DNA from: Lumbricus rubellus
Lineage: Eukaryota > Annelida > Clitellata > Crassiclitellata > Lumbricidae
Length of the DNA: 64,000 nt
NCBI GenBank assembly: GCA_945859605.1
Contig: OX243824.1
Location: 27,396,640-27,460,639 of the forward strand
Reading direction: 5' to 3'
Both the position numbers and the translations under genes were made by a program. The notes beneath the pieces were generated by a model, which was not told the origin of the DNA, ran no database searches, and worked only from the letters and a program-made list of their open reading frames with translations. This document shows positions 2,241 through 62,600 of this stretch, piece after piece; position 1 is the first letter of the stretch, and each line of letters starts with the position of its first letter.

Positions 2241-2556
2241 TAACAGCCCGGCAATTAACCAATTCTCATAGTGTAGCCTACCTGACATGGAGTTCCTTCT
2301 GCTCGCAAGACTAAAATGGTGCATGATTCACACACTTGCGGAAGATCACCATAAAAATATAGCCTACACACATCATCCATCCGATAGCTCGAATACGCTA
2401 AGCACACGCTCGCACCATTGCGCACTAACATCCTTAAAGTTTAAACTAACAGTAAGTTGTCGTCGGCTGTTTTTTTGTGTGAATATTAATAGCACAGCAA
2501 ATCTTTTTAAGTAGGCCTAATGCTTATGTTTAACAATTACGCACATTCGCTTCCGG

Positions 2557-3000
2557 TGACACGAAAAGGATTATCCCCCTGAAAGCTATCCGGGGGGATG
2601 AATTAATCTATCTAGAATTAACCGGTCTAGACTATCCGGGGGGGGGATAAACCATTCTATCCCATTTTTTGAAAAATTTGTATAATTAAAATTTTTATAC
2701 TCTAATCAAAATTTAATGTGACTCTAATTGTTTTAAGTGACCTAAGCAATGCTCAGAGAAAGGGAACTCGAATTTATTTAGTGTCTCCGAGTGTTTTTCA
2801 GTGTTTTAAATGTTTTAATTGCTATAAAAACAAAGCAAAACAAATTATCTAGTAGGAATAAACATACCTGTTAGTGTCAGTGTTCAAAACAAAGCAGATG
2901 AAAATTAATTTGCAAAAATAAATGCACGTGGAAGTGTTTTTTTCGACTTTTCCACATTTGGGGGAACCTTTTAATACGGGGGATACTCTATTGCATGACA
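2557..3000. mobile_element. Non-autonomous DNA element with CCGG target duplication
   Basis: Flanked by CCGG on both sides (2553-2556 and 3001-3004). Copy B has one CCGG at the matching place (about 48555), giving an empty site. The ends are imperfect inverted repeats starting TGACACGAAAAGG and, on the other strand, TGTCATGCAATAG, each followed by a TATCCCCC motif. It is 444 bp with no ORF. The element at 41941-42377 has the same CCGG duplication and similar ends. Confidence 0.75.
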
Positions 3001-59600: not shown

Positions 59601-62600
59601 GATGCTCACCTTGATAACTTCAAGGAGAACATTGGAGCATACGCGGAGGAGCAAGGCGAGTGCTTCCACCAGGATATTCTAGAGTTTGAACGTCGCCACC
59701 AAGGACAGTACAATGAGAACATGATGGGAGACTACATCTGGGGGCTGATTCGTGAATGTGATTTACAGTAAATGCTAACCGTAAATCTCGAAACACTACG
59801 CATTTCTAAATTTTGGGTGGTTAATTTTTTATCATTCTAGTATTGATACATGTTGCTTTAGAGTCATTTTGTGGTTTCTTGTGACCTATATAGTTTTCTG
59901 ATGACTTTACGTGAACAAAAACAAGGAAATTCGCTCGTTTGTTGTGGAAATAGGCTTTTTCTTTTAAATATCATTCTCCAGTCCCCAAAAGCAAAGTTTA
60001 AACAGAATAACAACCGTTTCCTATACTTTTGAGGCACAAATAACCAGGAAATCACACTCATTGCCCAGGAACAAAAATCGTGTTACATAGTGTTGTTTAA
60101 TCTATTGTGCTTTCTGGATACGATAAACTCTTGTGCTAATCCTTTGTTCTCAATCTGAGGTCACTTCCTTTCCGTATTTATAGTTTTATGTTCAGTAGGT
60201 GGTGGTCCTTCTTCTTGCCTAACATTCTTCCATTCTCTGTATAAAGACCCTAAGCAGTCTTGGCTCTCTGTTGTTAGCCGTGTGCTGTGCAATGTTCTTC
60301 CTAGGAAGTGCTATAATTATGACCTGAGGTTCTTCCCTCAGCGTTCTATCGGCTTCTTAAACCTACTTTGTTCCGATTTGCCTGGGCCGTGAGCGATTCG
60401 TGGTAGAGATCTTAGAGAAGAGCTAGGGCCTACATAAATTTTGATTGAATCAAATAGTGTCAAATAGATTTTCTGGAATTGCAGTATGAAAGTAAAAGAC
60501 TACCAGCGAAGCGCTAACGTCTGGTTTTACCAGATTGGAATTGGTGGCGCTGACAAAGTCAATGGTAAAGGATGGAAACTGAAAACGCTTTCAACAATCA
60601 TCAAATCTATGAACGACACAGGTGTAAGTTCACTTTCCCAGACAACTTATTCGTTACAGTGCAATGCATGATTATTAAAAAAACCAGTCGACATTTTCTG
60701 GTAGATTATTTAATCGAACCGGATTCAAATAGTTATAGGGTATCATTGTCATAATGATAAAGGCACCAGTCTATTATTTCTTAAATTAGCCAATCAATCA
60801 ATTCTTTTTTATTGATCGATGAATTGATTTAATAATCTGTTATTACCGCCTGGTCGAGATGTAATTTTCAAAAGAAAACGAGAAACCAGACTACGGTAGG
60901 TAAGAAAGTTGATACGTTTAGGCCTATATAGATTTATACCTATAGGCTATGATATCTTTGGAGCCCACGGCAGTAAATAGCTTTGGAAGGAAGTGCTAGA
61001 CAAACCGTCAAGAGTGACTGGTTGCAAAGCGACCTCTAGACGTTTACACTAGAGGTCGGGCACTGCCCTCTGCTGCTCATTGTAACTTAATGGTTCCATT
61101 CATTGGCTCTACGACAATCCAGAGCCGTTCTTTCTTAGTGGTTGGTCTTACTTAAAGACATCTGATGCGGTGCACCAAAAAGACTTTGCTAAGCCCTCGA
61201 AGGGTGACCGGACAAAATGGTAGCGGACAAAATGGTACGGACAAAATGGTACGGACAAAATGGTATGGATGAAATGAAAGCTGGATTAGTGAATTTTTAT
61301 ATATGAAATAGAAGCTGGATTAATGAAAAGACGTATGTGAAATGGAAGCTCAATGAAGACTCTGCGTGGATATTTTTATATATGAAATGGAAGCTGGATT
61401 GATGAAAATAACGCTTTAGACATAGAAGCTGTACAGGGTATTTTCATAGCTAAAATAAAAGCTCAATTAATGAAAGGGGTCTTACAAATGGAGGTTGTTT
61501 TAAGGAATCTTATGGCTGAAATAGAAGCCGGATACACCATGAAACACGTGAATGAAAGACATCAATCCAGCTTCCATTTCTCAAGCTTTTTCTTCGCCAA
61601 TCCGGCTTCCTTTTCTCAAGTTTTTTCTTCACTAGAACTGTATTTCAACCCTCAAAAGTCACCCACCCTCTATTTCCGCAATAAAATACCGTAGTCCAGC
61701 TTCAATTTATCCATGCCGTTTTGTCCGAACCATTTTATCTGTACCATTTTGTCCGTACCATTTTATCCGCTACCTTTTTGTCTTCTTGTGCCACTCGCGC
61801 CACAGTTTTTCAAGTAGCTACGTATGCCTGGTTGCATGTATGCGTGACTGTGTGTGTTAGAAACTTCGAGCAGGCGGTTATTGTGTAGGGCTCTTGAGAA
61901 AGTCCTTAAGAGCTATTTGCTCTGTCGTATAGTTTTAATTGTCATGGTCGTATAGTCTTACATATTAAGTGCACTTTGAGCACTGGAACGAGTAAAGTGT
62001 CAAACACATAGGCTATTATATTCTCATACAACAGTTTCAGGTTTCTGAACTTTGCATATCGACTGCTGACAACCGTCAAAATTTAATGGCAATTGTATCT
62101 GTCCAAAGATACTCATGACCAGGCCAACATAATAATTCGGATTATTATTAATTTTGTCTGATTCTTTATTATTAAATTATTAATCATCGCCATTTTGCAT
62201 CCGGGCAAATTTATTGGCTAATGTGTAGAACCATAACATAGCAGATAATTCTAATAGTTCAATAATATTGTGACTATTCTTGTCTTTGAATACATTTTAT
62301 GCATAGAGTCGTTTGTAATTCAGCATGTGATCCGACACTTCTTATAACACTTTACTTACTAAAAAGAGAACCAATGCTCGAAATAACAGTGGGCTGATTT
62401 TCAAATCCATGTATCGCTTTGTCGCTTGAAATTATTGTAGATCATAATCGATTATCTGAAGATGGACGTTGAAGGCTCTGAATGGCCGTCACTTGCACAG
62501 ATGTTGTCAGATGGATCTCTAGCGAACGTGAAGCAACTTGGGATAGAATTGCACATTGGTAGAAGTGATACGAAAAGCTTAGTCGGCGTGTACAGGACTC

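Follow-up and report, generated by a model that had tools for sequence, protein, structure and literature searches.

What has written the palindrome TAGGCCTA and its shorter relatives TAGGCTA and TAGCCTA again and again into one stretch of annelid DNA? The stretch, referred to here as the window, comprises 64 kb of Lumbricus rubellus (contig OX243824.1 of assembly GCA_945859605.1, positions 27,396,640 to 27,460,639; 39.9% GC, no N). Each of these words consists of a short insert between two TA dinucleotides, and we read them, with a probability of about 60%, as scars, i.e., as the excision footprints of a TA-targeting (Tc1/mariner-like) cut-and-paste element with the tips 5'-GGC...GCC-3'. The window itself displays the spectrum of inserts, the TA on both sides, a target preference, three polarised gains and the inheritance of the scars.

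The abundance of these words is far beyond chance. TAGGCCTA is present at 30 sites, while 100 shuffles of the window lead one to expect 0.68 (sd 0.90, maximum 3). It is the most over-represented 8-mer, at 43 times its second-order Markov expectation, in a ranking limited to 8-mers that count at least 16 over both strands and use three or more different letters, with simple repeats excluded. TAGGCTA and TAGCCTA add 55 sites, which makes 85 in total, 1.3 per kb or about one per 750 bases. Within the frame TA-N3-TA the runner-up trinucleotide pair reaches about 2-fold, and within TA-N4-TA the runner-up word, CATG, about 10-fold. The word survey also recovered two composite or longer forms (here and below, features listed without a strand have none assigned):

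19191..19203: TAGCCTAGGCCTA, two scars with one TA in common.
18024..18032: TAGGGCCTA, a variant with a 5-base insert, one of five; the others start at 26491, 31680, 60424 and 63986.

A large duplication inside the window allowed us to compare filled and empty versions of the same site:

2041..12955, plus strand: duplication copy A, 11 collinear self-BLAST blocks against 48060-62767.
48060..62767, plus strand: duplication copy B, 11 collinear self-BLAST blocks against copy A.

With microsatellites set aside, 7,737 bases align, and over these the copies differ by 483 mismatches (6.2%; Kimura two-parameter distance, K80, 0.065) and 95 insertions or deletions (indels). Motifs outside the aligned blocks (4 in A and 7 in B) were excluded from the comparison. 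The copy-specific sites have TA in one copy and TA-insert-TA in the other. They are listed here with the two variant inserts; the third copy mentioned is that of a miniature inverted-repeat transposable element (MITE) that also lies in both duplication copies:

2512..2519: TAGGCCTA, copy A only; B reads TA at 48517 (by eye, the BLAST alignment being ungapped).
5442..5448: TAGCCTA, copy A only; TA in copy B (alignment) and in the third MITE copy (by eye).
11114..11121: TAGGCCTA, copy A only; B reads TA at 60974 (alignment).
12242..12248: TAGCCTA, copy A only, with other changes adjoining (alignment and by eye).
12422..12429: TAGGCCTA, copy A only, with other changes adjoining; B has TC in place of the expected TA.
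48523..48531: TTAGGCTTA, copy B only, variant insert GGCTTA; A reads TTA (by eye).
52159..52166: TAGGCCTA, copy B only; empty in copy A and in both arms of the third MITE copy.
52316..52323: TAGGCCTA in B, with an extra GGCATA just before; A reads TAAGCCTA (by eye).
60919..60926: TAGGCCTA, copy B only; A reads TA at 11072 (alignment).
60943..60949: TAGGCTA, copy B only, plus two bases TG (alignment).

The four GGCCTA differences reported in a preliminary description of this DNA (A 2512-2519 and 11114-11121, B 52159-52166 and 60919-60926) are thus all present, with TA in the opposite copy. The two shorter variants that it named fared differently, since TAGCCTA at A 5442 is clean against TA in B, but TAGGCTA at B 60943, although present, carries the extra TG and is not a clean 5-base insert. 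The site at 2512 produces no alignment gap because a 6-base insert of B's own, a few bases further on (TTA to TTAGGCTTA), cancels the length. We count eight copy-specific cases, five of them clean (5442, 11114, 52159, 60919 and, by eye, 2512) and three less clean (12242, 12422 and 60943); the GGCTTA and GGCATA variants are not among the eight. The TAAGCCTA of copy A opposite B 52316 we take as a probable decayed scar. The preliminary description also proposed to look for enrichment among the indels of paralogous repeats, and on the A/B copies 5 of the 95 indels are six bases long, three of those five being the GGCCTA hexamer (P of about 3e-7, allowing for the existing frequency of the hexamer in both copies). 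If the copy-specific cases are gains, they amount to about one insertion per 60 substitutions and about one-twelfth of the indels (8 versus 483 and 95).

Five motif sites have copies beyond the A/B pairing (52159, 5442, 43346, 5265/51997 and 53253/58634). The relevant features are as follows:

41921..42382, minus strand: third MITE copy, used as outgroup; empty at three sites (52159, 5442 and 5265/51997).
43346..43353: TAGGCCTA, carried by only the central one of three repeat units; its two neighbours are empty (one by alignment, the other by eye).
5265..5271: TAGCCTA, filled in A and B (B 51997); the third MITE copy has TTA only; not polarised.

The sites at 52159, 5442 and 43346 each have a single filled copy against at least two empty ones, and are therefore gains. 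The emptiness of the third MITE copy at the first two, which the preliminary description had relied upon, was borne out (52159 aligned, 5442 by eye). At 43346-43359 a 12-base insert holds TAGGCCTA and CATGTA, and both sister units lack the insert and read GAGCATTATAATAC. The pair 5265/51997 is consistent with a gain, yet it stays unpolarised because just one empty copy is available, and 53253/58634 is uninformative because there the two copies of an identical element both contain the motif. Loss is indicated at none of the five. The MITE is of the fold-back kind (5155-5443, 41921-42382 and 51888-52192); its copy at 42 kb has inverted arms of 125 nt and ends that are ACCGGTGTAAAGGTTTC or one mismatch off.

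The inserts obey a simple rule, in which two 3' overhangs GGC lie next to the duplicated TA and the products depend on their overlap, with at most one mismatch. Against a motif-free background, the products of overlap 3 (one mismatch), GGC and GCC, were found at 55 sites versus 4.2 expected (13x), that of overlap 2, GGCC, at 29 versus 0.45 (64x), and those of overlap 1 (one mismatch), GGGCC and GGCCC, at 5 versus 0.19 (26x). Overlap 0 would give GGCGCC, with 0 sites versus 0.03. Words that tailing with G and C would produce were not enriched (TAGCTA, 13 versus 9.6; TAGGGCTA, 1 versus 0.88). When all 2-, 3- and 4-nt overhangs (16+64+256) were ranked, GGC came first of 336 (89 sites versus 4.8 expected, P 3e-78) and GG second (84 versus 4.6, P 2e-73), with P values that rest on a simple Markov background. 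The 3-nt overhang is preferred over GG only because of the five GGGCC/GGCCC sites. Footprints are 3 or 4 bases long at 84 of the 89 sites and 5 bases long at 5. The target is not random either. RTAY surrounds 44 of 84 scars (one of the 85 falls in a masked copy) versus 905 of 4311 TA sites (P 2e-10), and 40 of 76 without the copy-B duplicates; the signal resides chiefly in the adjacent base, with TTAA avoided (1 versus 8.1 expected), GTAC at 9 versus 2.5 and ATAT at 8 versus 7.0. Such a preference is what an enzyme choosing its target would produce, and it fits an integration step better than the repair of random breaks.

These observations can be arranged in a model. The element would integrate at TA, preferably RTAY, duplicating the TA. 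On exit, the non-transferred strands would be cut within the element, three bases from each tip, leaving on either flank a TA followed by GGC as the 3' overhang, and end joining would align the two overhangs at 3, 2 or 1 base of overlap, giving TA-GGC-TA or TA-GCC-TA, TA-GGCC-TA, and TA-GGGCC-TA or TA-GGCCC-TA, respectively. That an element once lay between the two TAs, and that its transposase was of the Tc1/mariner type, we infer from the footprints.

The scars look inherited. All eight sites that are intact in both A and B carry the same variant in the two copies, and scars remade in each generation should differ in variant. Two of these sites are:

7898..7905: TAGGCCTA, intact in A and B (B 55641; alignment).
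8426..8433: TAGGCCTA, intact in A and B (B 56168; alignment).

At three more sites one copy is intact and its counterpart differs by one or two point changes (2360, TAGCATA; 7878, TACCCTA; 57436, CTGCCTA). Decay is also visible along the window at large. Octamer relics with one mismatch show an excess of 73 versus 57 for intact octamers (both strands, motif-free background), where 300 permuted motifs gave a median of -0.4 and a largest value of 24.8; at neutral steady state, by our own arithmetic, the ratio of one-mismatch to intact octamers would be 8/7. The most frequent of these relics are transitions. Decay at the neutral rate is supported in part. If all copy-specific cases are gains, the flux (from 7.74 kb, K of 0.065 and about 7.5 mutable positions) predicts 1.3 scars per kb with the five clean cases and 2.1 with all eight (Poisson range for eight of about 0.9-4.2), to be compared with the 85 in 64 kb, or 1.3, that are observed.

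The closest competitor keeps the excision process and replaces the overhang by a 2-nt GG, blunt joining giving GGCC and a one-base overlap with a mismatch giving GGC or GCC. Its 84 sites and second rank speak in its favor, but it cannot yield GGGCC or GGCCC (5 sites versus 0.19) unless a later one-base slippage is invoked, and we consider it fairly unlikely. A transposon can also be dispensed with altogether, if a TA-specific nuclease or a domesticated transposase cuts RTAY and the ends are joined with added G and C, gaining 5 to 6 bases in one step. This would need no lost intermediate and would sit well with 85 scars in a window where no element was found. However, untemplated tailing predicts the very words, TAGCTA and TAGGGCTA, that are not enriched, and a fixed GGC overhang would require a separate source, which makes this micro-insertion quite unlikely in our view.

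The remaining alternatives are much weaker. A palindrome as strongly over-represented as TAGGCCTA could be a selected binding or signal site, its abundance coming from selection in the manner of HIP1 of cyanobacteria, but further insert classes are enriched alongside it, the copies differ by TA-bounded insertions with altered copies beside intact ones, and the relic excess is near neutral, so this seems very improbable. Equally, TAGGCCTA might be ancestral and the TA...TA microhomology might have removed six bases. A pair of copies alone is blind to gain versus loss, and most copy-specific sites, as well as 5265/51997, have no polarising third copy; nevertheless, the three sites that can be polarised are gains and loss cannot produce a 43-fold excess, which leaves this explanation with hardly any credit. 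Finally, programmed somatic elimination of TA-bounded inserts, as in ciliates, with scars remade in each generation, would account for the lack of any insert in the assembly, but the agreement in variant at 8 of 8 intact common sites and the point changes at others have an inherited look, and we find it scarcely credible as well.

Several results weigh against excision of a GGC-ended element. The evidence base is 64 kb and mostly a single duplication, and, because the overhang rule was formulated with the enriched words already in view, the ranking of overhangs is a consistency test and not an independent prediction. The target preference is RTAY and not the ATATATAT of ZB and Sleeping Beauty (SB). 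No candidate source was found in the window: among pairs TA-GGC...GCC-TA, none within 6 kb had 20-base inner repeats matching at 14/20 or more (two pairs at 13/20), and none of 689 pairs within 4 kb had 12-base inner repeats at 10/12 or more (two at 9/12). An ordinary transposon should leave some copies behind; with 85 intact scars and no resident element found, excision would have to outpace retention by far, unless the element is low-copy. Other TA-N-TA words are in excess too (CATG, 12 versus 1.2; ATTA, 27 versus 5.0; CCCGCG, 2 versus 0.03), and the copy-specific inserts GGCTTA, GGCATA and GGCTATG break the simple rule. The 12 kb from 20001 to 32000 contain no TAGGCCTA but 12 seven-base forms, a gap for which the simple model has no explanation. 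Regarding decay, octamer relics with two mismatches are not over-represented (-21; controls -53 to +48), and the 7-mers, for which no control was run, have 28 one-mismatch relics versus 51 intact sites, below the neutral steady state. Because of these two results, support for a steady state does not reach beyond the octamer's first step.

The reading of the scars as footprints of a Tc1/mariner-type element with GGC ends, put forward in the preliminary description, is partly supported, and better than its competitors, by the insert spectrum (five enriched inserts explained by one overhang), the RTAY context and the three polarised gains. The GGC-ended element itself has fared less well, with no TA-GGC...GCC-TA element found in the window, no transposase among the Pfam matches of the seven open reading frames (ORFs) scanned, and a GG overhang that fits almost as well. 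A search for repeats starting at TAGGC (213 starts, both strands) returned 20 start pairs at 14/20 or more, of which 15 are the duplication copies and the other five, at 14-15/20, we take as chance. One tentative and somewhat doubtful idea is that the germline of this lineage has been under the steady action of a "ghost" mobile element, or of a domesticated transposase that cuts TA, which shows itself by nothing but the scars it leaves. If so, one word family would be written across noncoding DNA and, given the self-pairing of the GC in the overhang, the commonest single scar would be a perfect palindrome bearing two fresh TA targets.

The window does hold a mobile element of another sort, in two 2228-bp copies that are 100% identical, start 5.4 kb apart, lie in copy B only and contain one TAGGCCTA each. 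It was rejected as the scar source, as its copies (52485-54712 and 57866-60093) have the tips CACTACGTAAC and CACTATGTAAC and 3-bp duplications, TAA and TTG. Recently moved, it looks CACTA-like from its tips and has, by our own reading, a broken ORF.

Among known systems, the SB tip is CAG, Mos1-type footprints are TACCATA/TATGGTA, the target of Stowaway elements is TA, the excision of internal eliminated sequences (IESs) in Paramecium is linked to Tc1/mariner, and PIF/Harbinger elements duplicate a 3-bp TWA. The scar words of SB and Mos1 are not clearly enriched here: TACAGTA/TACTGTA, the SB scar words, stand at 11 versus 6.8 and the Mos1-type words at 2 versus 7.7. TAGACTA/TAGTCTA stand at 9 versus 7.6. 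PIF/Harbinger differs in that the duplicated unit here is TA, with the TTAA context depleted (1 versus 8.1), although one B insert, TTAGGCTTA, can be read as TTA-GGC-TTA. SB and mariner cut three bases inside the tip, leaving 3-nt 3' overhangs at the donor and a footprint identical to them (PMC7827188), and the Mos1 cuts, staggered by three (PMC5481204), have the geometry predicted here. Tc1/mariner footprints of 2-4 bp are described, with ZB and SB favoring ATATATAT (PMC7913693); end joining results in footprints flanked by the TA duplication, that of SB being printed as TAG(T/A)CTA (PMC2874221), and noncanonical footprints also occur (PMC3770610). The likeness to SB and Tc1/mariner extends to the TA on both sides, an insert that would equal a 3-nt overhang whose middle base is resolved either way, and a palindromic target preference. 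What differs is the proposed tip GGC, the 4-base class formed through GC:GC pairing, the density of about 1.3 scars per kb, RTAY instead of ATATATAT and the fact that the scars are known without their element. The excision of Stowaway MITEs (PMC1925063), nonautonomous elements of grasses, also leaves footprints, but these are described at known element sites and not as a genome-wide word. HIP1 of cyanobacteria (PMC4390886) is another genome-wide excess of one palindromic octamer, discussed in connection with DNA methyltransferases, whereas here the copies differ by a TA-bounded insertion. The IESs of Paramecium (PMC3464196) share the TA-bounded excision, but theirs is somatic and the scars described here are inherited.

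How widespread is the pattern? In 22 LINE (long interspersed nuclear element)-bearing contigs from bacterial or archaeal bins, probably animal DNA (100,628 bases), there were 3 octamers versus 0.6, a slight excess, and 3 heptamers versus 6.2, whereas the density of the window would predict about 134 scar words instead of 6. The dense pattern is therefore not general in such DNA, although the shortness and high LINE content of these contigs make them a weaker control, and the process would seem, weakly, to be lineage-restricted. Searches of other genomes for mixed-variant patterns gave 0 and 3 contigs. Eleven viral contigs in which TAGGCCTA occurs three times at close spacing were discarded as related cases, since the copies are mainly in the selected cluster and the 7-mers (0-3 per locus) show no excess; these clusters look like unrelated short repeats. 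One additional locus from the viral collection had 0 octamers and 3 heptamers versus 1.9. In the titles and opening parts of abstracts, and among the string matches listed for TAGGCCTA (40 of 182 papers) and GTAGGCCTA (34 of 35), there was no description of such scars. Some fish sequences may be rich in TAGGCCTA as well. To our knowledge, excision footprints have been studied mostly at known element sites, and the scars may represent a mutation process not yet described.

Transposon excision could then supply a genome continually with short indels. The footprint spectrum alone suggests the length and sequence of the overhang, the outcomes of repair and the target preference of an element that is not seen. 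If confirmed genome-wide, past or hidden transposon activity would be detectable from indels, the balance of gain and decay would offer a tentative clock, and the scars would be a natural record of germline joining of 3-nt overhangs (overlaps of 3, 2 and 1 at 55, 29 and 5 sites). They also advise caution, as an over-represented palindrome is not necessarily a regulatory site.

The word TACATGTA deserves a separate mention. It is found at 624, 5589, 16433, 21025, 22380, 43037, 43352, 45055, 47930, 49376, 62937, 62974 and 63510, with 12 sites versus 1.2 expected outside masked repeats, and may represent another class of scar, with a CAT overhang (14 sites versus 2.0), or a microsatellite effect. 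GC-only inserts other than those of the GGC rule have some excess (CCGG, 2 versus 0.36; CCCGCG, as given above) and are too few to weigh. At 2237-2242, copy A has an extra ACTGTA (GAGTACTGTAACAG versus GAGTACAG), near the TACTGTA scar but one base longer.

The ORFs of the window include, by Pfam, a glycosyltransferase-7 (beta-1,4-galactosyltransferase-like), a Fringe/galactosyltransferase-like protein, a family-11 glycosyltransferase and two reverse transcriptases, one of which scored under the Pfam cut-off; there were no Rfam matches in the window. Three protein searches gave best matches at 71%, 62-75% and 68% identity; matches carrying an organism name reached at most 47% among the 111 proteins of one search and 37%, for a single protein, among the best 120 of 377 in another, and there was none among the best 120 of 4260 in the remaining one. 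Coding-like sequence appears to be poor in scars, although this is suggestive only: eight ORF or match intervals contain 3 of the 85 motifs versus 8.3 expected by their share of TA, all three, by our own reading, bordering the matched domains or lying beyond them, and in a tblastn search with 351 homologous proteins 1 of the 85 lies inside a match, at its edge. The two LINE reverse-transcriptase ORFs are located within 20001-32000, and the other glycosyltransferase ORFs, besides the beta-1,4-galactosyltransferase-like one, are found at 36013 and 39469. A 410-bp segment of the beta-1,4-galactosyltransferase-like ORF has been duplicated just beside it (14173-14582 and 14916-15335, 87.6% identity).

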